Below, one piece after another: positions 40,276 to 64,000 of a stretch of DNA of 64,000 nucleotides (position 1 is the stretch's first letter; every line of letters starts with the position of its first letter). The DNA comes from Nocardiopsis sinuspersici. GTDB lineage: Bacteria; Actinomycetota; Actinomycetes; Streptosporangiales; Streptosporangiaceae. The stretch lies in NCBI GenBank assembly GCA_008638415.1, contig VWVT01000009.1:124001-188000 (forward strand), written 5' to 3'. The notes under the pieces are model-generated. The model was given only the letters and a program-made list of their open reading frames with translations, did no database searches and was not told the DNA's origin. The translations under genes and the position numbers were made by a program.

Positions 40276-40530
40276 GCCGCGCCCCTCGGCGATCCCGGCC
40301 TTCCGGGAACCCGCCCGCCGCACGAGGCCCCGCCGCGTGACGTGCGCGGCGCCCGCACCGGACGTACGGACCGCCGCCCGGCGCCCCCGGAACGCGTCCC
40401 GCCCTGGTCCCCCGCACGGCGCCGGCGGCGCGGAACCGTTTCCCCGCGCGTCGCGTCACACCCTCCGAGCGCCCCTCCGGCGACGCTCTCCCCCTCTTAC
40501 GCACGTCACTCGCAGAAAGTAGACCCCCAC

Positions 40531-42576: not shown

Positions 42577-42587
42577 GGTAGTCCTTC

Positions 42588-45500: not shown

Positions 45501-47612
45501 GAGGTGCACGCCGAGAACGGCTCGTCGCTGACGGCGCTCGTGCGCGACGTCGCCGCGGCCCGGTACGACGAGGGGTACGAGCGGGGCGTGCACGACCACG
45601 ACGCCGCGCGGATCCTGTCGGCGCTGCTGCGGCTGCGCACCGGCGCCGGACTGCTGCGGTACCCGGGCGCGGCGCGTGCGGCGGCGCAGTTGTTCTGGGC
45701 GTTCGGCGCCACCGGGGAGCAGCGGTCGGCGTGGCGGACCCGGGCGGCCTCGCTGGCCCGGGCCCGCGAGGTGTTCGGGGTGCGCCGGTCCGCGGCGGTC
45801 GACGGGCTGCGCGCGGAGCTGGCGGCCGGTGTGGACGGCTTCCTGACCGGGACGGGGCTGCACCAGGACGCCGACCTGGACCTGGTGGGCGAGTACCTGT
45901 TCGAGGAGATCGCCTCGGAGACTCCCGGTGAGCGGGGTTTCGTGTCCGGCGCGGGCGCCCGTCTGCTGCTGGACCGCTTCCACCGGGCCCTGGGCAGCGC
46001 GCGGGAGACCACGCGCAAGGCCTTCGAGGAGGACCTGCGCGAGCTCGACGGCGACCTGGCGGCGCGGCACCAGTTGGTGACGGCGTGGCTGGAGGCGTTC
46101 GCCGCCACCCAGGAGGATGTGGACCCAGGCGACCTGCCCGAGGCCGCCGCGATCGAGCTGGCCGCCGTGGACCGGTACGAGTCGTCGGCGGCCGTGCACG
46201 AGAGCGTGGGCGGGCTGCTGGGCTCGCACCCGCGCGTGCGCGAGCGCTCCCTGGAGGTGCGCCTGGACGAGTTCCTGCCGCGCACCCGCCGGTTCCGGCT
46301 GGAGGAGGTGCCCGCCTACCGGGACTTCCAGCGGCGCCGCAACGAGCTGGTGGCGGCCGAGCGCGAGCGCCTGCGGCTGGAGGAGTACCGGCCGAAGGTG
46401 ATGAGCGGGTTCGTCCGCAACAAGCTGCTGGACGAGTCCTACCTGCCCCTGATCGGCGACAACCTGGCCAAGCAGTTGGGGGCGGCCGGGGACGACAAGC
46501 GCACCGACCAGAGCGGCCTGCTGCTGCTCATCTCCCCGCCCGGGTACGGCAAGACCACGCTCATGGAGTACGTGGCCAGCCGCCTGGGACTGGTGTTCGT
46601 GAAGGTCAACGGGCCCGCGCTGGGGCACGCGGTGACCTCGCTGGACCCGGACGAGGCTCCGGACGCCACCTCCCGCCAGGAGGTCGAGAAGATCTCCTTC
46701 GCGCTGGAGGCGGGCAGCAACACGATGCTGTACCTGGACGACATCCAGCACACGAACCCCGAGCTACTGCAGAAGTTCATCTCGCTGTGCGACGGCCAGC
46801 GCCGCATGGAGGGCGTGTGGAACGGGCGGACCCGGACCTACGACCTGCGGGGCAAGCGGTTCGCGGTGTGCATGGCCGGCAACCCCTACACCGAACAGGG
46901 CAAGCGGTTCCGGATCCCGGACATGCTGGCCAACCGCGCCGACGTGTACAACCTGGGCGACGTGCTGTCGGGCAGGGAGGAGCTGTTCGCGCTGAGCTAC
47001 GTCGAGAACGCGCTCACCTCGAACCCGGTCCTGGCGCCGCTGTCCACCCGGGACCGGGAGGACGTGTACCGGTTCGTGCGGATGGCGCGGGGCGACGACT
47101 CGGTGGGCGCGGACCAGCTCGGCCACCCGTACTCGGCGGCCGAGGTGGACCGGATCGTGTCGGTGATGCGCAAGCTGCTGCGGGTGCAGGAGGTGGTGCT
47201 GGCCAACAACCAGGCCTACATCGCCTCGGCCGCGCAGTCGGAGGACGCGCGCACCGAGCCGCCGTTCCGGCTCCAGGGCTCGTACCGGAACATGAACCGG
47301 CTGGCGGAGAGGATCGTGCCGGTCATGAACGGCGCCGAGGTGGAGGCCGCGATCGACGACCACTACATGGGCGAGGCGCAGACCCTGACGTCGGGCGCGG
47401 AGGCGAACCTGCTCAAGCTCGCTGAGCTGCGCGGGGTGATGACGCCCGAGCAGGAGGCCCGCTGGACGGAGGTCAAGGAGGCCTTCCGCCGGGGCCGGGC
47501 CCTGGGCGGTGCCGACGACGACCCGATGACCAGGGCCATCGGCGCGGTGGGCCTGCTCGCCGACCGGGTGGGCGAGATCGGCGCCGCGATCGGCCGGGGC
47601 TCCGAGCGGTAG
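42588..47612 (+). CDS. Giant DUF3686/AAA ATPase (DNA-repair-ATPase-like)
   Basis: 1674 residues. The N-terminal 450 residues (after a short coiled coil, from about 65: LSLLGTERIRTEHNCVPRDI) match DUF3686, a propeller-like region of the family annotated as DNA repair ATPase. A long coiled coil occupies about 500-920. A C-terminal AAA domain has Walker A SPPGYGKTT near 1318 and Walker B MLYLDDIQ near 1381, with AGNPYTEQGKRFRIPDMLANR resembling MoxR-type sensor regions. No membrane span. It forms a conserved operon with YqiJ and flotillin, so a membrane-microdomain AAA machine is plausible; a role in DNA repair is not shown. GAGGT precedes the GTG at 42588. Confidence 0.85.
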   Translation: MTEAQSQETQGTGPGADDARSLDAGTYEVLRARLREQTGELARRTEELNTRRLEVFGGTELSLLGTERIRTEHNCVPRDIVSVGRSVGSGADGAMILFGYNVFIGMQRETHVPDVFSLHRYERDGEGFSFTDAPEGTVPGLLSDERFQQDFGQLYRYYRDAHLLQLRRVEDRLLAVFQTGPNTEDVRVLRWSVSPSGEIAYLDARGERDHVFPPSHDFTWVETTREDHVAGRHPHISILDELFVETLGGDLTIKVENNTEVGEGVYSEPVDEPLQSLADASVHYARVGALILLRVRPYNETAWRHLVFNTRTKEVERLDGVGQSCQRLPDDQGLIFPGGYYLATGSARTFDTDVTDLEFERVVRSPNGEDVLYVFHSRADGRSLLLPYNTIRKEVAAPIVCHGYSLFDDGTMTVFRDNAGEPTRVHPMQVWRTPYVSDVYAAAQPVGTGPLERIGNAELVRGVSECLSVARMAEDMRPSTEVFEAIISACRRVCDRFHWLGEEEMGDLAAPLSEARATATRVLEEFETVQTLTRQAADTLAETEKRVVALIRTARGETPRSAEGWVRRLTELRRAQGQAATLRETRYVDTERLDDLDGRLSEEIAATGRRTVAFLERGEAFSGYHDEVDRLVADAEGIEAVSAATAVGERVAEQTEGLQVVTEVVGSLDIGDAQVRTRILERVSEVLAGINRARATLEARRGELLALEGRAEFAAEFALLGQAVTGALAAADTPDRCDEQLGRVMLQLENLESRFAEFDDFLGELADKREDVYEAFSTRKQSLVDERARRTDRLASSAARVLEGVHRRVAKLDTLEDVNTYFASDAMVARLRRTAEEMRELGDTVRAEELDGQVMAARQEAGRALRDRADLFEGGAGGETIRLGRYRFAVNTQPIDLTLTPHGGEMSVAITGTDFRAPVTDEGFGRTRHLWDRMLVSESPEVYRAEYLAASILAAAEEGADGLSLERLREAEVHAENGSSLTALVRDVAAARYDEGYERGVHDHDAARILSALLRLRTGAGLLRYPGAARAAAQLFWAFGATGEQRSAWRTRAASLARAREVFGVRRSAAVDGLRAELAAGVDGFLTGTGLHQDADLDLVGEYLFEEIASETPGERGFVSGAGARLLLDRFHRALGSARETTRKAFEEDLRELDGDLAARHQLVTAWLEAFAATQEDVDPGDLPEAAAIELAAVDRYESSAAVHESVGGLLGSHPRVRERSLEVRLDEFLPRTRRFRLEEVPAYRDFQRRRNELVAAERERLRLEEYRPKVMSGFVRNKLLDESYLPLIGDNLAKQLGAAGDDKRTDQSGLLLLISPPGYGKTTLMEYVASRLGLVFVKVNGPALGHAVTSLDPDEAPDATSRQEVEKISFALEAGSNTMLYLDDIQHTNPELLQKFISLCDGQRRMEGVWNGRTRTYDLRGKRFAVCMAGNPYTEQGKRFRIPDMLANRADVYNLGDVLSGREELFALSYVENALTSNPVLAPLSTRDREDVYRFVRMARGDDSVGADQLGHPYSAAEVDRIVSVMRKLLRVQEVVLANNQAYIASAAQSEDARTEPPFRLQGSYRNMNRLAERIVPVMNGAEVEAAIDDHYMGEAQTLTSGAEANLLKLAELRGVMTPEQEARWTEVKEAFRRGRALGGADDDPMTRAIGAVGLLADRVGEIGAAIGRGSER

Positions 47613-51631: not shown

Positions 51632-51814
51632 ATGCCCCATTCGACAGCACCCGACATCGACCTGCCGGAGCTGGACTTCGACAGCATGGAGGTCATGAGC
51701 GTCCGCGAGGCCGTCGCGGTCCCTGAAACGGGTGCCACGAGCGGCTCCAGCAGCTGCACCTCCACCTCGTGCTGCGGCTCCAGCAGCTGCTGCTCGGGCG
51801 GCTCCTGCGGCTGA
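51632..51814 (+). CDS. Thiopeptide-type precursor peptide 1
   Basis: 60 residues. The leader (about 1-40) is acidic (DIDLPELDFDSMEVMSVREA) and ends in VAVPETGATSGSS, the form seen in thiazolylpeptide bacteriocin precursors. The core from about Ser41 is made of Ser, Thr, Cys and Gly only: SCTSTSCC, GSSSCC, SGGSCG, with six Cys. Cysteines would become thiazoles, Ser/Thr dehydrated residues, and two Ser would form the pyridine ring. GAGG lies 5 bases before the ATG. A near-identical copy starts 334 bases downstream, followed by exporter and modification genes on the same strand. Confidence 0.92.
   Translation: MPHSTAPDIDLPELDFDSMEVMSVREAVAVPETGATSGSSSCTSTSCCGSSSCCSGGSCG
51674..51798 (+). repeat. 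Direct repeat copy A (precursor gene body)
   Basis: About 125 bases nearly identical to 52008-52132, offset exactly 334 bases. Only a few synonymous changes separate the copies, so the duplication is recent or under gene conversion. Confidence 0.85.
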
Positions 51815-51965
51815 GCCGATTCGGCTACATTCCCGATACCAACGTCCCCCAAACCCCCGATTCGATAATTCACGCCATATCAGCAGATCAAAGCGTGAAC
51901 CAATTCGACGTGCCTGCTCGAAGGCACGCACATCCCCTGAACCCAGCCTCAGAAGAAGGTGCTTG
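51815..51965 (+). other. Spacer between precursor genes, with a small hairpin
   Basis: 151 bases of lower GC. At 51909-51928 a 7-base-pair stem CGTGCCT/AGGCACG with a 6-base loop could act as an attenuator or mRNA-stabilising structure between the two precursor genes. No gene is seen. Confidence 0.45.
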
Positions 51966-52148
51966 ATGGCAATGCAGGACTCCCCCGTGATCGACCTGCC
52001 CGACCTCGACTTCGACAGCATGGAGGTCATGAGCGTCCGCGAGGCCGTCGCGGTCCCCGAAACGGGCGCCACCAGCGGCTCCAGCAGCTGCACCTCCACC
52101 TCGTGCTGCGGCTCCAGCAGCTGCTGCTCCTCGGGGTCGTGCGGCTAG
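51966..52148 (+). CDS. Thiopeptide-type precursor peptide 2
   Basis: 60 residues. Residues 14-60 are identical to precursor 1 except Gly56 changed to Ser (SSGSCG instead of SGGSCG); the first 13 residues differ at seven positions. The core is SCTSTSCC, GSSSCC, SSGSCG. The single core difference lies in the C-terminal tail outside the predicted macrocycle, so the two genes would give two closely related products. GAAGG lies 6 bases before the ATG. It is followed after 115 bases by the ABC ATPase gene. Confidence 0.92.
   Translation: MAMQDSPVIDLPDLDFDSMEVMSVREAVAVPETGATSGSSSCTSTSCCGSSSCCSSGSCG
52008..52132 (+). repeat. Direct repeat copy B (precursor gene body)
   Basis: Partner of the repeat at 51674-51798; see that entry for the comparison. 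Confidence 0.85.
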
Positions 52149-52263
52149 CGGTGCTCCCTCGGGGCTCCCGCCCCGGATCCAGCGGCACCGCCCAGGGCGG
52201 CCCCCTCTCCGGTCCGGGGGCCGCCCCCTCACGCCCCACCCCGACGAACCACGAGGGCCGCAC

Positions 52264-53166
52264 GTGTACGCCATCCAAGCCACCGACATCACCAAGGACT
52301 ACGGGAAGGGGGAGGTCCTCCACGGCGTCTCCTACCAGGTGCCCACCGGGCAGATCGCCGCGCTGCTCGGCCCCAACGGGGCGGGCAAGACGACGCTGAT
52401 CGAGATCCTGGAGGGACACCGGGGACGCACCTCGGGCCGGCTGTCCGTGCTGGGGCTCGACCCGGGCAGCCGCCGCGACTTCGCCCGGCTCCGCAGGCGC
52501 ATGAGCGTCGTCCTCCAGCAGACCATGCTGGAACCCGGCCTGTCGGTGCGCGACATCCTGCGCCGCCACGCCTCCTACTACCCCGATCCGCTCGACACCG
52601 ACGAGGTCCTCGACCAGGTCGACCTCGTGGAGAAGCGCTCCGCCCTGGTCAAGTCCCTCTCCGACGGCATGCGCCGCCGCCTGGACCTGGCCCTGGCCCT
52701 CACCGGGCGCCCCGAGCTGCTCTTCCTGGACGAGCCCACCACCGGCCTGGACCCGGTGTCGCGCCGCCGCATCCGCGGCCTCGTCTCCGGGCTGCGCGAC
52801 AGCGGCACCACCGTGGTCCTGACCTCGCACGACCTCACCGAGGTCCAGGAGCTCGCCGACCGGGTGGACGTCATCCGCGACGGCGAGTTCATCGCGTCGG
52901 GCAGCCCCGACGACCTGGTCCGCGGTTCCTCGGCCTTCACGGTGGTGGAGTTCGCCGACCCCGGCGTCGCCGCCGAACGCCTGCCGGAGGGCGCCGCGCT
53001 CGTCAACGGGCGGGTGCGCATCCGGACCGACGACCAGGACACCGTCGTGCGCGAGGTCCAGGAGTGGGCCACGCGGGAGGAGACCGAGATCAGCGGGTTG
53101 ACGATCGTTCCGCCCAGCCTCGACGACGCCTACATCGCGATGCTGGAGACGGGAAGGACCGAATGA
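52264..53166 (+). CDS. ABC exporter ATP-binding protein of the RiPP cluster
   Basis: 300 residues. Walker A GPNGAGKTT, signature LSDGMRRRLDLALAL, Walker B LLFLDEPTTGLDP and the switch His (LTSHDLTEVQ) are all intact. The C-terminal 80 residues are a DrrA-like extension. It energises the permease whose ATG overlaps its stop by three bases. Placed directly after the precursors, the pair most likely exports the mature thiopeptide and may confer self-protection. GTG start at 52264. Confidence 0.93.
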   Translation: MYAIQATDITKDYGKGEVLHGVSYQVPTGQIAALLGPNGAGKTTLIEILEGHRGRTSGRLSVLGLDPGSRRDFARLRRRMSVVLQQTMLEPGLSVRDILRRHASYYPDPLDTDEVLDQVDLVEKRSALVKSLSDGMRRRLDLALALTGRPELLFLDEPTTGLDPVSRRRIRGLVSGLRDSGTTVVLTSHDLTEVQELADRVDVIRDGEFIASGSPDDLVRGSSAFTVVEFADPGVAAERLPEGAALVNGRVRIRTDDQDTVVREVQEWATREETEISGLTIVPPSLDDAYIAMLETGRTE

Positions 53167-54014
53167 GCACCACCGAGACCGCGCGCACCAGGCGCCGACC
53201 CAGCAGCTTCCTCCTGCACGTGGACGGGGAGCTGAAGGAGTTCTGGCGCTCCCCCATCACCCTGGCGTTCATCGTCCTGATGCCGGTGATGTTCTACGTC
53301 GGCTTCGGGCTCGCGTTCCGCTCCGAGGCCGACGTGGTCCGTGTGGTCGGGGACCACGAGATCACCCAGGCCAACCTGAGCTACGGCGGCATCCTCGGCT
53401 TCGCGCTGATGTCGGTGGCCTTCGCCAACGTGGCCATCGGCCTGGCCATCCGCCGCCACCACGGCCTGTTCAAGCGCTTCCGCACCACCCCGGTCAGCCC
53501 GGCGACGGTGATGGGCGCCTACCTGGTGAACACCCTGCTCACGGCGGTGATCGTACTGGTGGTCGTCACCGCGATCGGCCTGCTCGGCATGGGCGTGACC
53601 GTCGACCCGGCGCGTGTACCGCAACTGCTCGTCGCGCTGCTGCTCGGCTTCGTGTGCATGGCCCCGCTGGGCGCGGCCGCGTCGCTGCTGCCGCCCAACG
53701 CCGACGCCGCCGTGCCGATGGTCAACGGCATCTTCTTCCCCGCGGCCTTCCTGGCGGGCGGGTTCGTCATCCTGCCGCTGGGCGACACCGTCGGAGCGGT
53801 CGTGGACCTGCTGCCCGGCCGCCCTCTGACCGTCCTCATCCAGGGTTCCCTGGCCGAGTCCGGCCCCGCCTGGGACTGGTCGGCGGTGGGGCTGCTGCTC
53901 GCCTGGTCCCTGCTGGGCACGGTGGCGGCGCTGCGCTGGTTCCGGTGGGCCTCCGAGCGCGAACCGCGCGGGTTCGGATCGGCCAAGCGCAAGGGGTCGG
54001 GGGTCGAGGGTTGA
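53163..54014 (+). CDS. ABC-2 permease of the RiPP cluster
   Basis: 283 residues, six membrane spans. The N-terminal amphipathic part reads HVDGELKEFWRSPITLAFIV, and the loop between spans 2 and 3 reads IRRHHGLFKRFRTTPVSPAT, typical of ABC-2 antibiotic exporters. It starts within the ATPase stop (ATGA at 53163) and its own stop overlaps the TTG start of the LanB gene, so the transcript is tightly coupled. Confidence 0.9.
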   Translation: MSTTETARTRRRPSSFLLHVDGELKEFWRSPITLAFIVLMPVMFYVGFGLAFRSEADVVRVVGDHEITQANLSYGGILGFALMSVAFANVAIGLAIRRHHGLFKRFRTTPVSPATVMGAYLVNTLLTAVIVLVVVTAIGLLGMGVTVDPARVPQLLVALLLGFVCMAPLGAAASLLPPNADAAVPMVNGIFFPAAFLAGGFVILPLGDTVGAVVDLLPGRPLTVLIQGSLAESGPAWDWSAVGLLLAWSLLGTVAALRWFRWASEREPRGFGSAKRKGSGVEG

Positions 54015-56752
54015 TCCTTTCTCCGTTCGACTGCGTGGAGGGCCCCTACCTGGTCTCCCGCGTGAACATGTACCCCTACCTGCCCCTGCGCGGCGCGGCC
54101 GTGGAAACGGACCGCGAGCTGGTGCGCACCCTCGCCGACGAGGAGGAGTACCGGGAGCGGATCCGCGAGCGGCTGCTCGACACCCTGCACTCGTCCGCCC
54201 CCGGCATCGAGGACGAGGAGCACCGGAGGACGGCGCTGGCCGCCAAGCGCGACGTGTACAACCGGCGCCCGCCCCGGACGTCGCTGGCCGGCCATCCGGT
54301 CACGCGGCGGATCGACGCGCTCGGCGCGTGGGTGCGGAGCTGGGAGCGCACACGCGCCGCCGCCGGGGAACTCGACGCCGCGCACGGAGCCGCCCTGGCC
54401 GCCGAGCGCGCCGTGCTCGCGGCGTGGGCGCGCGACCCGCTCACCGACCGCAGCACGGCGATGTCCAGCCCGGACCTGCACCGGGCGGTGGCAGCGCGCG
54501 GGGCCACCGACGGACCGCCCGACAAGCGGATGCGCAAGGCCGAGCCGTCCCTGGTGCGCTACCACTCGCGCTCCACGGTGAAGGTCAGCCCGTACTCGCT
54601 CTACACGGGCGTGTACTTCGACGACATGGAACAGCCGTCGTCGGTCACGCGCGACGGCGAGCCGCTGAGGTTCACCACCGACGCCGACCTGCGCCGCCTG
54701 CTGGTCCGGCAGGCGGGACGCGTGCTGGCCGCCGACCCGGAGGCCCGCCTGGGGATGGAGTGGGTGCTCACCGGCGGGGCCCGCCGCGAGGGCGACCGCC
54801 TGCTGGTGCGCCGCCGCCGGTGGGTGCCGCCCGCACCCGGGCTGCGCGCGGAGGCGTTCGGCGAGGAGGAGGTGCGCATCCCGCTCTCGGGGGCGTGGGG
54901 CCCCCTGGTGGCCGCGCTCGAACGGCGCGCGGCGCGGCCGGTGCGGTTGTCCGAGCTGCGCGACGGCCTCGCGGCGGATCTGGGGCACGGGTCCGACGCG
55001 GTGATGCGCGTGCTGGACAAGCTGGTCGGAACGGGTGTGCTGGTGCCGTGGGCGCCGGCCGCCGAGCAGTCCCCCGACTTCGTCCGGCGCTGGTACGGGC
55101 TGGCCCGGCGGCTTCCGGGGGCGACCGCCGCACGGGTGGCGGCGGCCTTCGAGGCCACCCGGGACGTGCTCGATGACTTCGGGGAGGCCACGGGCACGGA
55201 ACGGGCGCGTTCCGTGCTGCACCTGCAACGCCTGTGGTCGGCGGCGGTGAGCCCGGCGGCCTCCGCGGACCGGGACGACCGCGGGAGCGGAAGGGCCTCC
55301 GGGGACCGGGAGTCCCAGGAGCCCGGGGAGATCCAGGAGTCCGGGTCCCGGACGGCACGGCGGCCTTCCGATGACACGGCCTCCTCACCCCTGGTGGAGG
55401 ACTGCCACGTCTCACGCGGCGCACCGGTCCCACGCGAGTGGACCCGCGCGTGGTCCGCCGACCTGCGCGGACTCATGCCGCTGCTGTTCGCCCTGGACGA
55501 CCAGCGGGTGCTGGCGGGCGCGCTGGAGAGCGTGTTCGTGGACCGCTACGGCCGGGGCGGCCGGTGCACCGACCTGGACGAGTTCGCCGGGCACGCACGC
55601 GCGGCCTTCCCCATGACCCAGCGCCTGATGGCGGGTGAGACCGGCGAAGCGGACGAGGACCTGTCCCGGCTGCTGGCCGCCCGGCGGCGTGCGGTCGAGC
55701 ACCTCAATGACCTGTCGGGGCAGGACGCCGAGGCGGTCGAGGTGGACCCGGCCGTGGTGGAGGAGGTCGCCTCGCTCCTGCCCGAGCGGGAGTTCACCGC
55801 ACGGCGCTCCTTCGCCGTGTTCGGGCACCCCGACCACCGGGGCGGGCTCGTCCTCAACCACCTGTACGGCGGACGGGCGCGCTACTTCAGCCGGTTCCTG
55901 GCCGCGCTGCCGGACGGCGTGCGCGACCGGGTCGCGGCACACGTGCGCCGCCTGGGTCCGCCGGACGCGGACACCGTTCACATGCGGTCCGCGCTGGGGT
56001 TCAACGCCAACCTGTCGCCGCTGCTCGCCCCCGAGGAGTTGGCGCTGCGCGACGAGCCGGTCCTGGCGGACGGGCCCTCCACCGCCGACCTCCACCTCGT
56101 GCACACCCCGCGCGGGCTGAGGCTGGTGCGCGGCTCCCGTGAGGTCGACCCGGTCTACACCGGCTTCCTGGTGCCGCACGCGCTGCCCTACGACGAGATG
56201 CTCGTGGCGATGCTCGCCGACTCGCCGTTCTTCTCGTTCAGCGACACCGTCATCGACCTGCACGAACGCTGGGAGAGGAGCCGCTCCGACCGCCGGGCGC
56301 CGGGCGGCACCCCGCGGATCTCCTTCGGCGACGTGCTGCTGTTCCGCCGACGCTGGGCCCTGGACGCCGACCTGCTGGCCGCCCGTCCCGGGGAGGACCC
56401 GGAGTCGCTGCACCGGCGGATCAACGTCGAGCGGACCCTGCGGGGCATGCCCGACCAGGTGTTCGTCCGACCGCTCCAGGGCTCGCGGATGGGTCCGATG
56501 GAGCGGGCGATGGCGCCCAAACCCCAGCACGTGGACTTCCTGAGCAGACTGCACACGGCGACCGCCGCGAAACGGCTGGCCCACCTGGGTCCGACCCTGT
56601 TCGCGGAGGAACTCCTGCCGTGCCCGTCGGAGGGCGGCCTGAGCGGGCCGCGCGGGCGGCACGCCACGGAGGTGTTCCTCGAACTGTCCACCGTGCCCTC
56701 CCCCGTCCCTCCGATGCCCGTTCCCCCAGGCGAAGTGAGGCTGGTCCCTTGA
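54011..56752 (+). CDS. LanB-type dehydratase, glutamylation domain (TbtB-like)
   Basis: 913 residues from a TTG at 54011 that overlaps the permease stop (TTGA); a GGGGG run ends 7 bases upstream. YLVSRVNMYPYLPLRG opens the Lant_dehydr_N fold, with RYHSRSTVKVSPYSLYTGVY and RYFSRFLAALPDGVRDRV as further class markers. In thiopeptide pathways such proteins use glutamyl-tRNA to glutamylate Ser/Thr of the precursor; elimination is done by a separate LanB-C protein. The separate domains found here fit that split arrangement. Residues about 418-462 are a Gly/Ser/Glu low-complexity insert. Start codon is the main uncertainty. Confidence 0.88.
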   Translation: MILSPFDCVEGPYLVSRVNMYPYLPLRGAAVETDRELVRTLADEEEYRERIRERLLDTLHSSAPGIEDEEHRRTALAAKRDVYNRRPPRTSLAGHPVTRRIDALGAWVRSWERTRAAAGELDAAHGAALAAERAVLAAWARDPLTDRSTAMSSPDLHRAVAARGATDGPPDKRMRKAEPSLVRYHSRSTVKVSPYSLYTGVYFDDMEQPSSVTRDGEPLRFTTDADLRRLLVRQAGRVLAADPEARLGMEWVLTGGARREGDRLLVRRRRWVPPAPGLRAEAFGEEEVRIPLSGAWGPLVAALERRAARPVRLSELRDGLAADLGHGSDAVMRVLDKLVGTGVLVPWAPAAEQSPDFVRRWYGLARRLPGATAARVAAAFEATRDVLDDFGEATGTERARSVLHLQRLWSAAVSPAASADRDDRGSGRASGDRESQEPGEIQESGSRTARRPSDDTASSPLVEDCHVSRGAPVPREWTRAWSADLRGLMPLLFALDDQRVLAGALESVFVDRYGRGGRCTDLDEFAGHARAAFPMTQRLMAGETGEADEDLSRLLAARRRAVEHLNDLSGQDAEAVEVDPAVVEEVASLLPEREFTARRSFAVFGHPDHRGGLVLNHLYGGRARYFSRFLAALPDGVRDRVAAHVRRLGPPDADTVHMRSALGFNANLSPLLAPEELALRDEPVLADGPSTADLHLVHTPRGLRLVRGSREVDPVYTGFLVPHALPYDEMLVAMLADSPFFSFSDTVIDLHERWERSRSDRRAPGGTPRISFGDVLLFRRRWALDADLLAARPGEDPESLHRRINVERTLRGMPDQVFVRPLQGSRMGPMERAMAPKPQHVDFLSRLHTATAAKRLAHLGPTLFAEELLPCPSEGGLSGPRGRHATEVFLELSTVPSPVPPMPVPPGEVRLVP

Positions 56753-57897
56753 CCGTCGGACTCCGAGTGACCTACTACGACAGCGACAAGGGCGCGCTGC
56801 TGGGCGAGTGCCTGGTACCGGCCGCCCTGGAGACCTCCCGAAGGGAGGGGATCACCGCCGCCTGGCTCCACCTGCACTGGCGGCTGGGTCCGCACTGCGT
56901 GCTCTACGCGGACGGCGACGCCGAAGCCGTGGACGCCGCGCTGCGCGACGCGGACGTCCGCGTACGGGGGTTCCTGGAACGCGAGCCTTCCACGTACGCG
57001 ATCGACCCCGGCCAGTACGCGGACTTCTCCGCGAGGATGGGCCGCATGGAGCTGGTGGAGCCGCCCTACGCACCGCTGGAACCGGACAACTCGGTCCGGC
57101 GGCTGGAGGGGGACCCGGTGGACACGTTCCTGCGCGGGCGCGAGGCGGCCGAGCTCAAGGGCCGGGTGCTGACCGACGGGCTCTCCCGGGTGGCCGGCCT
57201 GGTCGGCGGCCGGGCCGACGGAGGGGCGGCGGCCTCCCACGTGTTCGCGGGGATGGGCGCGATCGCCTCCCAGTACCCCGAGTGGGGACTGCGCTCCGGC
57301 TACCAGGCGTTCCTGTCGCACTGGAAGGAGTACTTCCACTGGTCGGACCCCGACGGGAGGGCGCAGGCGCGGCTCGCCGAGTCCTACCTGGCACAGCGGG
57401 AGGATCTGGTGGAAACGCTGCGCGCGGTCCACGAGGGCACCACGGACGACCCGTCCGCGCTGTCCTGGCTGGAGTGGACGCGGCGGTGGCTGCCCGAGGC
57501 GGTGGCCCTGGCGCGCGGGGAGCACATCCTGCCGTTCCCGCACCCGGACCGTCTGGACACGGCGACCCGCTTCGGCGAGGACACGCGGATCCGGTGGAGC
57601 GGCTCGGACGAGCGCTCCTACAGCGACTTCCACCGGGAGTTCCGCAAGCTGGACTTCACCCGGCTGGGCGACGGGTACGGGTTCGCGGCGTTCCGGTTCG
57701 TCATCAACTGCTTCTTCGACCTGCTGCCCCTGATGGGGGTGTCGCCGATCCAGCGGTACTCGATCGCGTACCTGTTCACCGAGGCCGCCCAGGAGGTGGT
57801 GGGCGAGACCTGGGAGGAGACCGTGCGCCGGGTGGTCGACCACCAGAGCAGCGACCCGGAGCTGAAGCCGACCCTGCCGTGGGTGGGCGATGCCTGA
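56749..57897 (+). CDS. LanB-C-like protein, candidate pyridine synthase (TbtD/TclM-like)
   Basis: 382 residues from a TTG at 56749 (TTGA overlap with the LanB gene; GAGG 8 bases upstream). It opens VGLRVTYYDSDKGALLGECL and has WLHLHWRLGPHCVLYADGDA, the pattern of SpaB-C-related proteins in which a substrate-handling beta strand is followed by GPH. Later segments include YAPLEPDNSVRRLEGD and FVINCFFDLLPLMGV. Since a canonical elimination-type LanB-C protein is encoded at 63171, this divergent copy is best explained as the enzyme that joins two dehydroalanines in the formal [4+2] cycloaddition and expels the leader. That assignment is by elimination. Confidence 0.68.
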   Translation: MTVGLRVTYYDSDKGALLGECLVPAALETSRREGITAAWLHLHWRLGPHCVLYADGDAEAVDAALRDADVRVRGFLEREPSTYAIDPGQYADFSARMGRMELVEPPYAPLEPDNSVRRLEGDPVDTFLRGREAAELKGRVLTDGLSRVAGLVGGRADGGAAASHVFAGMGAIASQYPEWGLRSGYQAFLSHWKEYFHWSDPDGRAQARLAESYLAQREDLVETLRAVHEGTTDDPSALSWLEWTRRWLPEAVALARGEHILPFPHPDRLDTATRFGEDTRIRWSGSDERSYSDFHREFRKLDFTRLGDGYGFAAFRFVINCFFDLLPLMGVSPIQRYSIAYLFTEAAQEVVGETWEETVRRVVDHQSSDPELKPTLPWVGDA

Positions 57898-59644
57898 ACA
57901 CACCGCCACGCCTGAGCACACCGTCACGCGCCGGCTGAAGAGCGCCGTGCGCGCCCGCTCCCTCGCCGAGGAGGGGGTCGCCCTGAGCATGGGGGCGACC
58001 GCCGTCGTGGTGCGGGGCGCCCGGGCCGACACCGTGTGGCGCGCCCTGGAGCCCGCGCTGCGCGCCGGGTTCACCCGGCGGGCCCTGACCGAGCGGTTCC
58101 CGGCCGGGGGCAGGCCGTTCCTGGAGGGCGTCCTGGACCAACTGGAGGAGCACGGGTTCCTGCGGGAGGCGGAGGAGGAGCACGGGCTGTCGGAGTCCGA
58201 GCTGGCCGCCTACCCGCACGTGGAGTCGCTGACCGCGCGGCCGTACGCGGCGCTGCGCGCGCTCGCGGAGAGCACCGTCCGGATCCGGTCGTCCTGTCCG
58301 CTGCTCGAAGCGGAGGTGCGCCGTGCCCTGGGGCGCGCCGGTTTCCGCGAGGTACACGCCGACACCGGGCCCGGCACCGGCGCGCTGCTGACCACCAGGC
58401 TCTCCGTGCCCGGGCGGGAGGAGGCGCTGCACCTGGTCGACACCGAACGCGGGGTGTGGGTCTCGGGCCCGCGCAACACGTCCGGCGGCCCCGAGCTGGT
58501 GGACCGTGTGCGGGCCTGGTTCGGGGGGCACGGCGCTCTCGGGGCCCCCGAGGCGAGTGGTGCCGCCGAGACCTCCGAGGGCTCTGGGGGCTCTGGGGTT
58601 TCCGGGGTCCCTGGGGCGTCCGGGAACGAGGAGAGCCCCGGGCTGGCGATCACACGTTCCCTGGTGGCCGCCCAACTGGCGCTGGCCCTGGTCGCGCAGG
58701 TGGCCCGGAGCGTGGACGCGGCGGAGCCCCCGGGCGATCCGGAGTTCATGGTGACCACGGACGAGCTGGTCAGCGAGCCGCATCCGTTCGTCGCCCTGCC
58801 CGCCCTGGACCCGCGCGTCGAGGCACCCCTTCCCACGGGAGCCGTGCCCGCGGAGGAGGTGCCCGAACGACTGGACGCGGTGGCGCACCTGTGGGACCGG
58901 GTGTTCGGCCCGGTCGGCGAACCCCGGCCGGACGACCTGGAGCAGTTGCCCGTGGGACTGGCCCGGGTGGAGCGCTCTTCCCTCCTCGGCGCGGGTACCA
59001 CCACCGCGTCGGCCCGACTGGACGCGCTGACCACCGCGCTGCACGCCGTCGCCCGGCCGGAGGGATCCGGCCGCGGAACGGGAGACGGTGGTCGTGCCCG
59101 GGCCGGTGATCCCGGGTTCGGGCTGGGGCTGACCCCGTCGGCGGCGGTGGGCGAGGCCGTCGGAGACCTGGTGGTGCGCGTCCGCGACCGCTGGAAGGAC
59201 GTGGACCGGCCGGAACCGATGTCGGCGTCCGCCCGCAGGCTGTGGGCCGCGCTGACACTGCGTTTCGGGGTCGGGGCGCGGCTGCTCTGCCAGGAGCTGG
59301 ACGGCACCGCCCTGTGCCGGGTCACCGTTCTCGGCCCCGGCGAGGAGCCCATGGGCGTCAGCGCCGCTCCCGACGTCGACGCCGCGACACGGGAGGCCCT
59401 GCTCCGCGCCGTCGCCCGCGTCCAGGCCGCGCGGGACGGGGCGGCCGGCGGTGCTTCCGGGGACACCGCGTCCGCCGGATCCGCGGAGGAGACCGTGGCC
59501 GTGACGGCGACGAGGACCGAGGCGGTGACCGCGTCCCTGGCGCGGTGGGCGCGCGAGACCGGCCTGGTTCGGGTGTACGCGCCCGGCGGGGCCGATGCCT
59601 GGGCGGAGCGCGGTGTGTACACGGCGGTGGCCTCATGGACCTGA
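57890..59644 (+). CDS. Ocin-ThiF-like cyclodehydratase partner (F protein, TbtF-like)
   Basis: 584 residues. The first 120 residues form a winged-helix RiPP-recognition-like module (VTRRLKSAVRARSLAEEGVA, VLDQLEEHGFLREAEEEHGL); the middle has the ThiF/E1-like parts (STVRIRSSCPLLEAEVRRAL and AITRSLVAAQLALALVAQVA). No catalytic ThiF motif is expected. F proteins bind the leader and present the core to the YcaO enzyme. Two Ser/Gly/Ala-rich inserts (about 220-245 and 390-410) look disordered. It begins inside the stop of the previous gene and ends inside the start of the YcaO gene. Confidence 0.85.
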   Translation: MPEHTATPEHTVTRRLKSAVRARSLAEEGVALSMGATAVVVRGARADTVWRALEPALRAGFTRRALTERFPAGGRPFLEGVLDQLEEHGFLREAEEEHGLSESELAAYPHVESLTARPYAALRALAESTVRIRSSCPLLEAEVRRALGRAGFREVHADTGPGTGALLTTRLSVPGREEALHLVDTERGVWVSGPRNTSGGPELVDRVRAWFGGHGALGAPEASGAAETSEGSGGSGVSGVPGASGNEESPGLAITRSLVAAQLALALVAQVARSVDAAEPPGDPEFMVTTDELVSEPHPFVALPALDPRVEAPLPTGAVPAEEVPERLDAVAHLWDRVFGPVGEPRPDDLEQLPVGLARVERSSLLGAGTTTASARLDALTTALHAVARPEGSGRGTGDGGRARAGDPGFGLGLTPSAAVGEAVGDLVVRVRDRWKDVDRPEPMSASARRLWAALTLRFGVGARLLCQELDGTALCRVTVLGPGEEPMGVSAAPDVDAATREALLRAVARVQAARDGAAGGASGDTASAGSAEETVAVTATRTEAVTASLARWARETGLVRVYAPGGADAWAERGVYTAVASWT

Positions 59645-61593
59645 CCACACGGAACCAGGGGAACCAACGGGTCTCACCTGAGGGGCGAGACCAGCGAGAC
59701 CCGCAGGACCGGCAGGGTCAGCAGGACCACCGGGACCAGCGGACCGCGCATGAGGAGCGGGACCAACGGGACCAGAGGTCCGCACGTGAAAAGCGAGGCC
59801 AGCGGGACGGGCGCGTCCGTGCCCGGGTCCCGTCCCCCGTGGGGGCGACGCTGGCCGAGCCCCGCACCCTCCGTACGGGCGGGGGCCTGCTGCACGTGGC
59901 GATGAGCGGCGCGCTCGCGGTCGTCGGACCGTGGACCCCCGACGCGTCCACGGGCTGTGCGCGGTGCGCCGGGCTCTGGCGCCGGGACGTGGAGGGCGAC
60001 ACCGCCCCCGACCGGCCCGTCCCCGAGCTCTTCCCCCTGTGGGCGGACGCCTTCGCCGGCCTGGCCGAAACCGCCGCACACGGCCCCGAGGACCTGCGGC
60101 TGGCGCTGGTCGCCCTGGACTGCCGCACCGGCGAGGTCACCCGGCACCGTCTCGTCCCGCACCCGGGCTGTTCGCACTGCTTTCCCGGGGGCGCCGGACT
60201 CGCCGTCCCCGGCGGCCTGGACCTGCGGACCCCGAGGCCGGTCGCCGGCGACGCCCTGCGCACACGCTCCATGGACCGCGCCGGCCTGCGGGCGCGGCTC
60301 CTGGACTTTCGCTTCGGACCCGCCGCCCACGTCTACCGGGACGAGGAGTCACCGCTGTCCCTCATGACCTGCGAGACCGTCGCCCCCGGCCACACCAGGC
60401 GCGAGGGCGGCTACGGGCGCTCCACCCGGTTCTCCGACAGCGAGGTCCCCGCCTTCCTCGAAGGCGTCGAACGCGTCACCGGCGGCCACCGGCACACCGG
60501 CGCGGCCACGGTCTTCGGCAGCTACGCCGAACTCGCCGACGACGCCCTCGACCCCGAACGGCTCGGCCTGCACGAACCCGAGTGGTACGGGCACCCGGTC
60601 TTCGACCTGGTCCCCTACTCCCCCGACGTCCCCACCTCCTGGGTCTGGGGCTGGTCCACCCTGGAGCGCCGCCGGATCCTGGTGCCCGAGCATGTCGCGT
60701 ACTGGCACGCGGGTACCGAGGGCACCCGCTTCCTGTACGAGTCCTCCAACGGCTGCGCGGTCGGCGGGACCCTGGAGGAGGCCGTCCTCTACGGACTGTT
60801 CGAGGTGGTGGAGCGCGACGCGTTCCTGCTCGCCTGGTACTCGCGCACACGGCTGCGCGAGATCGAGGCGGACCCCGGCCTCGCCCACCTGACCGACCTG
60901 CTGGACGAGCGCGGCCTGCACCTGCGGCTGCTCGACCTCACCTCCGACCTGGGGATCCCCACGGCGCTGGCGGTGGTCACCGCCCCGGAGGAGGCGGTGC
61001 GCTCGGGGCTGGCACCGGCGCTGAGCCTGGCCACCGGCACCCACCTCGACCCCCGGCGCGCGGTCATGGCGGCGGTGGAGGAGACCGCCACCAACGCGCT
61101 CATGTACCCCAAGTGGGTGCGGATGCGCGCGTCGGTCGACGTGGAGCGCTGCCGCCCCATGCTGGAGGACTTCACCCTGGTCAGGACACTGGAGGACCAC
61201 ACCGGAATGCACGGGCTGTGGGAGTCGCGCCGGCACTGGGAGTTCCTGGGGGCCCCGACCGCCACCGTCCCGATGGAGGGGTTCGCCGCGGGCCGCCCCT
61301 CCTCCTTCGCCGGGGCCGACCTCACCGCCCTGCTCCGCGAACGCCTCGACGCCGTGCACGCGCTCGGGCTGGACGTGGTCGTGGTGGACCAGAGCAGCGC
61401 CCCGTACACGGACGCCGCCGGGGTCCGCTCGGTGAAGGTGATCGTCCCCGGAGCCCTGCCGATGACCTTCGGCCACACCCACCGCCGTACCCGCTCCCTG
61501 GAGCGGCTGACCCGCGCTTCCACGCTGTTCGAGGGAGGAGTCCCATGGGAACGACACGGCCAGGTCCACCCGGTACCGCACCCCTTCCCGTGA
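59635..61593 (+). CDS. YcaO cyclodehydratase (D protein, TbtG-like)
   Basis: 652 residues. Residues 5-62 are an Arg/Gln/Asp repeat (RDQRDPQDRQ-like). Two CxxC pairs, Cys108-Cys111 (TGCARC) and Cys179-Cys182 (HPGCSHC), match the tetrathiolate zinc motif of the E1-like cyclodehydratase domain, here joined to YcaO. The YcaO domain (about 230-652) has the ATP site SSNGCAVGGTLEEAVLYGLF plus EVVERDAF, and the protein ends HPVPHPFP, the proline-rich tail that marks azoline-forming YcaO enzymes. It converts Cys (and perhaps Ser/Thr) to azolines with ATP. The ATG at 59635 overlaps the F-protein stop. Confidence 0.93.
   Translation: MDLTTRNQGNQRVSPEGRDQRDPQDRQGQQDHRDQRTAHEERDQRDQRSAREKRGQRDGRVRARVPSPVGATLAEPRTLRTGGGLLHVAMSGALAVVGPWTPDASTGCARCAGLWRRDVEGDTAPDRPVPELFPLWADAFAGLAETAAHGPEDLRLALVALDCRTGEVTRHRLVPHPGCSHCFPGGAGLAVPGGLDLRTPRPVAGDALRTRSMDRAGLRARLLDFRFGPAAHVYRDEESPLSLMTCETVAPGHTRREGGYGRSTRFSDSEVPAFLEGVERVTGGHRHTGAATVFGSYAELADDALDPERLGLHEPEWYGHPVFDLVPYSPDVPTSWVWGWSTLERRRILVPEHVAYWHAGTEGTRFLYESSNGCAVGGTLEEAVLYGLFEVVERDAFLLAWYSRTRLREIEADPGLAHLTDLLDERGLHLRLLDLTSDLGIPTALAVVTAPEEAVRSGLAPALSLATGTHLDPRRAVMAAVEETATNALMYPKWVRMRASVDVERCRPMLEDFTLVRTLEDHTGMHGLWESRRHWEFLGAPTATVPMEGFAAGRPSSFAGADLTALLRERLDAVHALGLDVVVVDQSSAPYTDAAGVRSVKVIVPGALPMTFGHTHRRTRSLERLTRASTLFEGGVPWERHGQVHPVPHPFP
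59680..59815 (+). repeat. Degenerate short tandem repeat in the YcaO 5' end
   Basis: Imperfect repeats of the form GACCAGCGGGACC encode the RDQRD-type N-terminal segment of the YcaO protein. Likely expanded by slippage and not conserved. Confidence 0.6.
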
Positions 61594-63107
61594 CCGGTCC
61601 CCGCCCTCCCGCGACCGACTCCCGGGCCCGGGTCCTGGCCGGGTTCCACGGCCAGTCGCACGACAAGGACGTCTCCCCGGTGGAGACCCTGTTCTTCGGG
61701 CCGGACCTGTCCAACGGCCTGGCCCGGCCCGTACCCGGGCAGGCCCGCCCGAGTCTGCCCGCCCTGGGCCCGCTGCGGGACACGAACGCCTCCGGGCCCC
61801 CGCTCGGCGGCCCCTGGTCCCGCGCGCAGCGGCTGCTCGCCGCGTGCGTGGAGGCGGTGCGGGTGCGCCGGATCTCGGCGGCCGACCGCTACCCGGTGCA
61901 CCGCGCCTACCCGTCCCCGCGCGGGCTCTTCGGCGCCGACCTGTTCGTGGTCTCCGGCGGTCCCGTACCCCGGTGCCTGCGCGTGGACCCGCAGTCGCAC
62001 GCGCTCCAGCCCCTGGACGGCCTGCCCGCGCCGAGGGAGCCGGAGGACCTCGCCGACGCACGCCTGGTCGTGGCGGTGGACCACCGCCGCTACCCGCCCG
62101 AGTACGGGCGGCTGCGCCCCTCGCTCGCCCTGCTGGAGGGCGGACACCTGCTGGCGACGCTCGGTCTGGCCCTGGAACGCGCCGGTCTGCGTCCCCGCAC
62201 GCACTTCGGTCCCACCGACACCCCGGTGCCCAGCGGTTTCTCGCCCTGCGGCGCCATCACCCTGGAGCCGGACGGGACCTCCGACGCGGACGGGGCAGGC
62301 GAGGCTCCCGAGGCGGGCAGCGCTCCGGAAACAGAAGGGACCACAGAAGCAGGCGGCACTCCGGAAACGGAAGGGACCACTAAGGCAGGCGGCACTCCCA
62401 AGGTGAGCGGCGCTCCGGAAACGGAAGGGGCCACGGAGCCGGACGGGTTCCCCGAGGCTGACGGGACCCCTACGGACACCGCGCCGACGGTGTCGGCCGA
62501 GGCGCTGTCCCGGGTGGCAGCCGCCTCCGCGCCGACGGGCACCGCGCTGCGCCGCTGGCTCGACGACCGCACCAGCGGGGTGTCCACCGCCAACCTGGTC
62601 ACCAGCTCCCACGTCGGCCCCGGCGGGGGCGAGGGCGTCAGCACCGCCCTCGCGGCCGCCCTCGGCGCCGCCGGGGAGGCCCTCCCCGTACCCGGCGCGC
62701 TCCGCCTGTACCGGAAGGTCCTCGTGGCGGACCGGGTGGACGACCGCGCCGCTTGCGAACTCGTGCCCGACGGCACCGAACTCCCCTCCCGGCCCGTGGC
62801 GCGCACCGGGGAGACCAACTTCTCCTCCTCCCTCGGCTACACGCTCGCCGTGGACTTCCGCCCGTGGGCGCGTGCCCACGGCGACCACGCCCAGACCGTC
62901 CTGCACACCCTCCTCGGCTGGACCGCGCAGTGGGGCTGCCTCGGCGCCGCCGCCACCGGGCTGTGCGCCCGGCCCATGCGCAACTACCAGGAGGCCGACT
63001 GGGCGGCCGTGCTCGGGCTCGGCCCCGACCAGACCCCCGCCTACCAGTTGTGGGTGCGCGCCGAACGCGGCTCCTACATGGACCTTCCAGTCGACGCCTC
63101 CCCCTGA
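61545..63107 (+). CDS. FMN-dependent azoline dehydrogenase (TbtE/SagB-like)
   Basis: 520 residues. Two nitroreductase-like halves: the first contains VRVRRISAADRYPVHRAYPS and GLFGADLFVVSGG, the second GETNFSSSLGYTLAVDF and LGWTAQWGCLGAAATGL. They are joined by a repetitive linker (about 240-312). This is the SagB/McbC oxidoreductase type that oxidises thiazolines to thiazoles with FMN. GGAGG lies 6 bases before the ATG at 61545, so the gene overlaps the YcaO gene by 49 bases in another frame. Confidence 0.9.
   Translation: MGTTRPGPPGTAPLPVTGPRPPATDSRARVLAGFHGQSHDKDVSPVETLFFGPDLSNGLARPVPGQARPSLPALGPLRDTNASGPPLGGPWSRAQRLLAACVEAVRVRRISAADRYPVHRAYPSPRGLFGADLFVVSGGPVPRCLRVDPQSHALQPLDGLPAPREPEDLADARLVVAVDHRRYPPEYGRLRPSLALLEGGHLLATLGLALERAGLRPRTHFGPTDTPVPSGFSPCGAITLEPDGTSDADGAGEAPEAGSAPETEGTTEAGGTPETEGTTKAGGTPKVSGAPETEGATEPDGFPEADGTPTDTAPTVSAEALSRVAAASAPTGTALRRWLDDRTSGVSTANLVTSSHVGPGGGEGVSTALAAALGAAGEALPVPGALRLYRKVLVADRVDDRAACELVPDGTELPSRPVARTGETNFSSSLGYTLAVDFRPWARAHGDHAQTVLHTLLGWTAQWGCLGAAATGLCARPMRNYQEADWAAVLGLGPDQTPAYQLWVRAERGSYMDLPVDASP
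62270..62480 (+). repeat. Tandem repeat encoding the dehydrogenase linker
   Basis: Roughly eight imperfect 24-30-base units encode blocks such as APETEGTTEAGGTPETEGTT. Units read GCxCCGGAAACxGAAGGGxCC with A-rich character unlike the flanking gene, so it is probably a slippage-prone linker. Confidence 0.65.
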
Positions 63108-63170
63108 CCCCGTCCGCCCGGCCCCCGTGTCCGGGCGGGAGACCCCCGAAGCCAAGGAAGAGCAGCCACC

Positions 63171-64000
63171 GTGACCCGTACCTGGTCGGCCGTGTACGTC
63201 CACCTCCACCGCGAGCGCGAGCACCTCGACGCCTTCCTGCTGGACCACCTGGCCCCGCGCGCGGAGGAACTGGTGGCGCGGGGCCGCGCCAAGGCGTGGT
63301 TCTTCCTGCGGTACTGGGACGGCGGCCCCCACCTGCGGGTGCGCTTCCTCGACGCGGACGCCGACGCCGTCGACGCGTTCTCCGAGCACATGCGCGCCGC
63401 CGCGGCGGAGACCGCCGACGACGCGGTCGCCCTGGACAGCGCGGCCTACTACGCGAACCTGCCGCAGGCCGACCCCGGCCGCTGGCACGGTGACGGCGAC
63501 GTGGTCGGGGCCGTCTACGAGCCCGAGACCGGGCGCTACGGCGGCCCGGAGGCGCTGGAGGTGTGCGAGGACTTCTTCTGCGTCAGCTCCGCCATCGCAC
63601 TCGCCGTCCTGCGCTCCGCGCCACAGCCGCACCAGCGCCAGGCGGTGGCCGCCGACCTGGCGTCGCTGGCCTTCTCCGTGCTCGGGTTCTCGGACGTGGA
63701 GGCGGTCCGCCAGGCCCGCGGCTACCACGCCGCCTGGGACTACTCCGCCGAGGTCGCCCGGGGAGACGGCCGTGCCCGCGAGGAGGCCGAGCACCTGTTC
63801 CACTCCTCGCCCTCACGCTGGCTCCAGCGCCGCACGCAACTGGAGCGCCTGGTCTCCGCCGACGGCTCCTCCACCCACCACCTGTGGCACCGTGCGCTCG
63901 GCGAGACCGTGGCGAAGCTGCGCCGTCTGCACGCGGAGCAGCCGCTCACCAACGCCCTCACCCGCATCGTGTGGTCCCTGCTGCACATGCACCACAACCG
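63171..64000 (+). CDS. LanB-C thiopeptide-type bacteriocin protein (TbtC-like), 3' end cut by window
   Basis: Open from a GTG at 63171 to the right edge, 276 codons without a stop. Motifs of the SpaB-C/thiopeptide-type biosynthesis domain are clear: WSAVYVHLHRE, AKAWFFLRYWDGGPHLRVRF, YEPETGRYGG and, just before the edge, WSLLHMHHNR, so only a short tail is missing. In thiopeptide pathways this protein eliminates glutamate from glutamylated Ser/Thr to give dehydro residues. GGAAGAG lies about 9 bases upstream. It is 63 bases after the dehydrogenase stop. The cluster very likely continues beyond the window. Confidence 0.9.
   Translation, partial: MTRTWSAVYVHLHREREHLDAFLLDHLAPRAEELVARGRAKAWFFLRYWDGGPHLRVRFLDADADAVDAFSEHMRAAAAETADDAVALDSAAYYANLPQADPGRWHGDGDVVGAVYEPETGRYGGPEALEVCEDFFCVSSAIALAVLRSAPQPHQRQAVAADLASLAFSVLGFSDVEAVRQARGYHAAWDYSAEVARGDGRAREEAEHLFHSSPSRWLQRRTQLERLVSADGSSTHHLWHRALGETVAKLRRLHAEQPLTNALTRIVWSLLHMHHN

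Follow-up and report, generated by a model that had tools for sequence, protein, structure and literature searches.

The 64,000-nucleotide stretch of Nocardiopsis sinuspersici DNA analysed here (the window) ends in a complete thiopeptide-type gene cluster that is lactazole-like in build rather than thiomuracin-like (Tbt). Gene content and order, homologies, conservation of the core peptide and co-occurrence of the genes together make it very likely that this is a Nocardiopsis lactazole-type thiopeptide cluster, with a pyridine macrocycle that would be closed by protein C and exported by an ABC transporter pair. Its features are the following:

51632..51814, + strand: A1, precursor peptide of 60 aa with core TSGSSSCTSTSCCGSSSCCSGGSCG after ...VPETGA (NF033400, 62.1 bits, cut-off 30)
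51966..52148, + strand: A2, precursor peptide of 60 aa with core TSGSSSCTSTSCCGSSSCCSSGSCG (NF033400, 61.1 bits, cut-off 30)
52264..53166, + strand: DrrA-like ABC transporter ATPase (PF00005, 98.7 bits)
53064..54014, + strand: ABC-2 permease (PF01061, 65.1 bits); frame counted from the first start, the real start probably lying closer to 53166
54011..56752, + strand: B, LazB-like protein of the LanB N-terminal (glutamylation) type (PF04738, 65.3 bits, cut-off 28); probable TTG start, judged from the overlap
56755..57897, + strand: C, TbtD/LazC-like pyridine synthase homologue (profile match to PDB 5wa3, E 5.1e-36; NF045556, 145.9 bits); putative GTG start
57890..59644, + strand: D, putative leader-binding-type partner of YcaO, LazD-like by position (operon place and conservation)
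59635..61593, + strand: E, YcaO cyclodehydratase whose N-terminal domain is of the leader-binding type and whose tail reads HPVPHPFP (PF02624, 265.7 bits); putative ATG start
61590..63107, + strand: DH2, extra diverged SagB-like protein (hhalign match with the F dehydrogenase domain); its GTG start and the stop codon of E overlap
63171..64000, + strand, cut by the window end: F, LanB elimination domain fused to a SagB-type azoline dehydrogenase (PF14028, 162.7 bits; PF00881, 51.2 bits); the whole gene spans 63171-64889 (L008:1172-2890), its stop lying 889 bases beyond the window

Family matches and the sequence itself confirm the genes that an earlier, sequence-only reading had listed at this locus, among them the ABC exporter pair (PF00005 and PF01061) and the YcaO protein with a PxPxP-like tail, here the proline-rich HPVPHPFP, and the nearly universal head-to-tail overlap is evident as GTGA at 61590 and TTGA at 54011. 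The assignment to the thiopeptide type is likewise supported. Both precursors exceed the NF033400 cut-off, in keeping with the acidic leader and Cys/Ser/Thr-rich core of thiopeptide precursors, although the core, described as Cys/Ser/Thr-only, also contains Gly. E has the YcaO signature expected of thiopeptide clusters, passing the cut-off of TIGR03604 (259.9 bits) in addition to matching PF02624, and F passes those of TIGR03891 (138.5 bits) and TIGR03605 (99.1 bits).

Several of the proposed gene assignments needed revision. The split LanB dehydratase is present, with PF04738 in B and PF14028 in F; its N protein (to 56752) had been recognised correctly, but the supposed LanB-C-like protein at 56755-57897 is the pyridine synthase homologue, and the real elimination domain begins at 63171. 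The 'Ocin-ThiF' partner at 57890-59644 does belong to the operon, where its place is conserved among relatives, but D has no counterpart among the Pfam and NCBIfam models or, when used as a profile, among PDB entries, so that its role is assigned by position; E itself bears the leader-binding-type TIGR03882 (54.2 bits, over the cut-off). Finally, the supposed dehydrogenase at 61590-63107 is indeed a diverged SagB-like protein, but a second one, the other SagB-type domain being fused in F. DH2 has no Pfam or NCBIfam match; its N half aligns with the F dehydrogenase domain (hhalign probability 92-94%, E 1e-7 to 6e-7), and its second half received no assignment.

Relatives keep the gene set in identical order, and this recurrence shows that the set is more than a chance assembly. 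Within the genus of the window, the cassette is present in 20 of 40 genomes: the genomes with C (at least 71% identity) are the very ones that carry the permease and DH2, and 19 of these 20 also have the precursor. Five genomes only were searched from the order of G067, and these gave no match. In the 20 kb stretch L008, F is followed by a GNAT acetyltransferase on the opposite strand, by a regulator of the XRE type and by a graspetide-type cluster; among the selected ORFs of L008 no conserved tailoring candidate follows F, which leaves the suggestion of tailoring genes beyond 64 kb unsupported.

The core comprises 25 residues, all Ser, Thr, Cys or Gly, with six Cys. The lactazole motif SSSC occupies core positions 15-18. 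Its third serine, Ser17, is the same in all five divergent core types compared, whereas Ser15 and Ser20 vary; position 17 is Ser in all 40 precursors compared. SSSC is found in four of the five core types, and the remaining one, L102, reads Gly-Cys-Ser-Cys, its Cys at position 16 creating a Cys-Ser-Cys arrangement around Ser17. Given the invariance of Ser17 and the location of SSSC, we predict a macrocycle running from Ser2 (or Thr1) to Ser17, which would have 44 atoms if counted from Ser2 and 47 if counted from Thr1. The first ring atom is uncertain because the residue directly past the leader GA is Thr, followed by Ser at position 2, whereas lactazole-like precursors have Ser first; Ser does stand at core position 1 in the relatives L102 and L104. 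Closure at Ser20, which forms the sole Cys-Ser pair of the core, is disfavoured since L104 carries Gly there. Another serine pair could close the ring after removal of a longer leader, for example Ser6-Ser17, which would yield 32 atoms and has exactly the 11-residue spacing of LazA Ser1-Ser12. We consider this unlikely: by homology the leader/core border sits after GA, and the block S2-G3-S4-S5-S6, kept in the five core types, is hard to square with a discarded leader.

For the lactazole-type cluster with closure at Ser17 we propose, from homology, the following route. D and E would recognise the A1/A2 leader and convert the six Cys, and probably Ser16, to azolines, which the dehydrogenase half of F, perhaps helped by DH2, would oxidise to azoles. 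B would use Glu-tRNA to glutamylate Ser/Thr residues, and the elimination half of F would dehydrate them. C, the candidate [4+2] pyridine synthase by virtue of its homology to TbtD, would then carry out a formal [4+2] reaction between the dehydroalanines of Ser2 and Ser17, expelling the leader and closing the pyridine macrocycle; the dehydrobutyrine of Thr1 is a less likely partner of Ser17. The resulting ring, 44 (or 47) atoms in size and bearing the tail C18-G25, would be exported by the ABC pair.

Several observations would also suit a linear, goadsporin-like azole and dehydroamino-acid product, with C as a non-catalytic relative of pyridine synthases. The NF045556 score of C is less than half of the equivalog cut-off of 325, the ring distance is very large, Thr occupies core position 1, and the GNAT acetyltransferase lies directly past F on the opposite strand, goadsporin being described in PMC5303826 as carrying an N-terminal acetyl group. 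However, C is kept, at 27% to 93% identity, in those relatives with other modifying genes that were read far enough, and has blocks in common with TbtD; Ser17 and its neighbouring residues are conserved; and GNAT adjoins F in none of 10 other genus loci (L105-L114), L112 having a single weak match (30%) at a different place. A linear product is, on balance, improbable. In Tbt systems the elimination protein (TbtC) and the dehydrogenase (TbtE) are separate and the ring-closing site is Cys-Ser-Cys. The sequence-only reading had matched the genes to the TbtA-G set, and identical enzyme functions are indeed present, but we reject a standard thiomuracin-type cluster as barely credible because the elimination and dehydrogenase domains are fused in F as in LazF, and the B-C-D-E-F order, the PE.GA leader end and the SSSC at the predicted closure site are all lactazole (laz)-like.

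The core of this lactazole-type cluster is conserved far beyond its enzymes. In 36 of 40 precursors, 20 core residues are identical; between Curtobacterium and Nocardiopsis these 20 are the same while the modifying enzymes are 30-50% identical and the ABC pair 52-61%. Two Arthrobacter precursors differ at one and three of the 20 residues, and the core freezing is not universal, since L056, L101 and L119 retain 85%, 80% and 70% of them. Recent horizontal copying was rejected as the source of the identical cores, given the 30-50% enzyme identity between Nocardiopsis and Curtobacterium and codon switching, with both TCN and AGY codons in five of the 10 conserved Ser columns. As a control, four lactazole-like loci, represented by one precursor per locus and leaving out the second precursors of L115, L117 and L118 (that of L118 clearly divergent), showed core identity of 88-100% at YcaO identity of 74-84%. 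Core constancy is thus partly common to the lactazole type, but a frozen core is only partly ordinary, as Nocardiopsis-Curtobacterium pairs hold 100% core identity at 47-51% YcaO identity. A sequence so nearly frozen points to a single, unchanging target or role and presumably not to a diversifying weapon. More tentatively, and with considerable doubt about the combination, the product may be a natural 44/47-atom ring of azoles, dehydroamino acids, Ser/Thr and Gly, its sequence held near-fixed over three actinobacterial families by a conserved role (a signal or an invariant target), with DH2 as a partner dehydrogenase that so dense an azole pattern would require.

Novelty of the product relative to known thiopeptides is plausible. 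Four core/leader fragments were absent from the 5.39 million open papers searched, and none of the papers searched joined thiopeptide, Nocardiopsis and Curtobacterium; the precursor family is already in NCBIfam (thiazolyl_B, NF033400). The Nocardiopsis thiopeptide TP-1161 shares the host genus but, by its description in PMC4603692, is of the type with separate cyclodehydratase parts. With the thiomuracin/GE2270 type (TbtA-G) the cluster shares a homologous pyridine synthase (TbtD, PDB 5wa3) and the same kinds of reaction, whereas the ring of that type has 29 atoms according to PMC7136475, compared with 44 or 47 predicted here.

The closest known system is the laz cluster of Streptomyces lactacystinaeus (BGC0000606). 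As described in PMC7210931, LazF is an elimination-dehydrogenase fusion, LazA requires Ser1, Ser10, Ser11, Ser12 and Cys13, and the Laz enzymes can form 14- to 62-membered rings. The cluster resembles laz in the LazB-F roles, the LazF fusion and the SSSC ring-closing motif (LazA Ser10-Ser11-Ser12-Cys13), and lactazole-like loci in gene order, the PE.GA leader end and SSSC in the precursors. Against the lactazole-like loci L115-L118, identity is 27-43% for B, C, E and F, and D is without a match. It differs from laz in having two precursors, an ABC exporter, a 25-residue core of Ser/Thr/Cys/Gly only with Thr after GA, extra residues between the ring ends (four if the ring begins at Ser2, five if at Thr1), and DH2 between E and F, a sixth candidate modifying enzyme against five. 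According to PMC7210931, which cites a survey for the count, 251 of 508 predicted thiopeptide clusters, about half, are lactazole-like, laz is the sole characterised member, with no biological function known as of 2020, and known thiopeptide rings have 26-35 atoms, a range that a ring of at least 44 atoms would exceed. The extra SagB-like gene and the nearly invariant core are what distinguish this cluster from laz, and the strict purifying selection on the core offers a direct route to asking what lactazole-like molecules do.

Most of an orphan thiopeptide cluster of the lactazole-like kind lies within the 64-kb window. The cluster is complete and stands out by an extra dehydrogenase-like gene and by a core that is longer and almost frozen. 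The window itself (G000:C8:124001-188000) is part of a 6.1 Mb draft genome, and the closest relatives judged by the cluster are Nocardiopsis. The cassette comprises ten genes, all on the plus strand, and ends 889 bases beyond the window end; the starts given for B, E and DH2 are inferred from gene overlaps. In window numbering, with the downstream stretch L008 included, the features are as follows.

51632-64889, plus strand: precursors A1 and A2, ABC ATPase, ABC2 permease, B (LanB-N), C (TbtD-like), D, E (YcaO), DH2 and F (elimination and dehydrogenase fusion), in this order, from family matches
65019-65660 (L008:3020-3661), minus strand: GNAT acetyltransferase, convergent with F
67890-71178 (L008:5891-9179), outside the window: separate graspetide-type RiPP cluster, from matches to TIGR04186, TIGR04187 and TIGR04188

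As a profile built from 11 relatives, the pyridine synthase homologue C matches TbtD (5wa3) with an E-value of 5.1e-36; the single sequence gives 6e-19. Its NCBIfam score of 145.9 bits lies under the equivalog cut-off of 325.

Scanning contigs with A1 as the query yielded 24 loci, 23 of which carry a precursor with a window-type core; in the remaining one (L060) the match is limited to part of the leader. The window together with these 23 loci yielded 40 precursors, picked by a pattern that already requires the general form; in 36 of them the 20 residues TSGSSSCTSTSCCGSSSCCS are identical. Deviations are G3A in one copy of L051, T10P in L052 and, in the two Arthrobacter loci, T8S (L054) and C7S, T8N and T10S (L056), so strict identity of the core connects Nocardiopsis and Curtobacterium, with Arthrobacter close. 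Five of the ten Ser columns (S4, S5, S6, S15 and S17) contain both TCN and AGY codons, two types that lie two or more bases apart. In Nocardiopsis-Curtobacterium pairs the 20 core residues are 100% identical, at 47-51% identity for YcaO and 47-49% for the pyridine synthase. LanB-N of the window is 40-42% identical to that of Curtobacterium L057 and L058; for Curtobacterium against the window the values are 37% for F, about 30-37% for D (over aligned stretches) and 52-61% for the ABC pair. In a control of four lactazole-like loci, using one precursor per locus and excluding the divergent second precursor of L118, core identity was 88-100%, with 74-84% for YcaO and 60-80% for the pyridine synthase; such conservation is therefore partly general. 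Curtobacterium also has second precursors 3' of the cluster (L059:10001-10156 and G584:C1:611878-612033, the latter match with an internal stop).

Recognisable versions were found in remoter relatives of the same taxonomic family (G449, G555, G354 and G536), in a search in which 8 of 200 genomes of that family matched at all, four of the eight being from the window's genus. Core identity to the window falls to 80% in L101 and 70% in L119, and across the five core types positions 2-6, 11, 13, 17, 18 and 19 are invariant, save for Ala at position 3 in L051. In G536 (L102/L119) there are three precursors, with Cys-Ser-Cys at the ring-closing site and Asp or Glu within the ring region, and about 7 kb separates the F gene from them. 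Other NF033400 matches (L069-L071, L075, L078, L079, L081 and L085) represent a different Ser/Thr/Cys-rich precursor type, with LESETFE in the leader and adjoining YcaO genes.

DH2 (61590-63107), the additional gene, matches nothing in Pfam or NCBIfam and, as a profile, nothing in PDB. In hhalign comparisons its first half aligns with the dehydrogenase domain of F (probability 92-94%, E-value 1e-7 to 6e-7); its second half does not (probability 1.4%). DH2 lies between E and F in all ten genus loci read through F (L105-L114), nine of which are, judged by length, on the same contigs as loci of the A1 scan. It was also found, in pieces and at 38-42% identity, in Curtobacterium L057, L059 and L058, where L057 and L059 overlap on one contig and F was read in L059 only. 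There is also a weak match in Arthrobacter terricola (L056; E-value 3e-6) and a further match in G536 (27% identity, E-value 5e-4). Trees were built for C (23 rows) and E (18 rows). In each, a single branch, with support of 99/98 and 100/99 respectively, sets apart the rows that we ourselves labelled as the DH2 group, including L054 although its piece ends before DH2; L119 and L056 form long branches and were flagged as unsure. Outside the group fall L101, L103 and L104, with TSG-like or SSG-like cores. These three loci, L103 being a short contig, each carry a back-to-back pair of divergent lactazole-like clusters, and precursors occur on both strands; in L101 and L104 one cluster has adjoining E and F without DH2, and the second runs off the piece read.

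Within the genus, C (at least 71% identity), the permease and DH2 are each present in the same 20 of 40 genomes, or 21 for C if the distant relative (31%) in G010 is included. The precursor accompanies them in 19, the exception being G019, a 970-contig draft. The window's upstream SUFU-like or AAA gene recurs in the 5' flank of 13 of 17 scan loci that belong, or appear to belong, to the genus (L037-L053; two have fewer than 200 bases upstream), which places the cluster mostly at one chromosomal site. This is consistent with old vertical inheritance accompanied by losses. At 40342-47612 the window encodes a Band_7/SPFH protein and, after it, an AAA protein of 1674 aa (DUF3686, DUF7902); 8 of the 17 loci also have this AAA protein upstream of the cluster. 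Past F come the GNAT acetyltransferase and an XRE regulator on the opposite strand, then the ATP-grasp RiPP cluster. The GNAT gene stands beside F in none of L105-L114 and so is not conserved next to the cluster. The graspetide-type cluster (precursor TIGR04186, 39.4 bits; ATP-grasp maturase TIGR04187, 436.6; methyltransferase TIGR04188, 415.1) also adjoins the thiopeptide cluster in L106, and is absent from the read flanks of the other nine loci of L105-L114. In Curtobacterium aurantiacum (L055, 9998-11972) an intact-looking precursor and ABC exporter stand without any modifying genes, with LigD and Ku among the genes farther along, and a search of the genome for a pyridine synthase at an E-value of 1e-6 gave none; this may be either a decaying cluster or an exporter retained for immunity.

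PMC7210931 gives Ser1, Ser10, Ser11, Ser12 and Cys13 as required in LazA. Aligned from the SSSC motif, LazA Ser12 corresponds to window Ser17, a position that is Ser in all 40 precursors and all five core types. Ser20, a member of the core's only Cys-Ser pair, is replaced by Gly in L104. The ring is predicted to start at Ser2 or, less likely, at Thr1; extrapolated from lactazole at three atoms per residue, its size would be 44 or 47 atoms, respectively. Known thiopeptide rings had 26-35 atoms as of 2020, and Laz enzymes have been shown to make rings of up to 62, according to the same paper (PMC7210931).

The fused elimination/dehydrogenase protein, the hallmark of lactazole, is common to F and LazF, 'an unusual bifunctional protein' in PMC7210931, where LazB, LazC, LazD and LazE are described in roles that match the enzymes of the window cluster. 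Biosynthesis would, by analogy, proceed as for lactazole. The lactazole-like precursors of L065-L068 share with the window precursors both the leader pattern (approximately L..LDL..L.V.S....ALPE.GA) and the SSSC motif. In these same four genomes (L115-L118), F directly follows E with 83-178 bases between aligned stretches, leaving no room for a further enzyme. The strict lactazole type has Ser after GA and five enzymes only; the window cluster departs from it in both features, and we therefore class it as a variant of the lactazole type.
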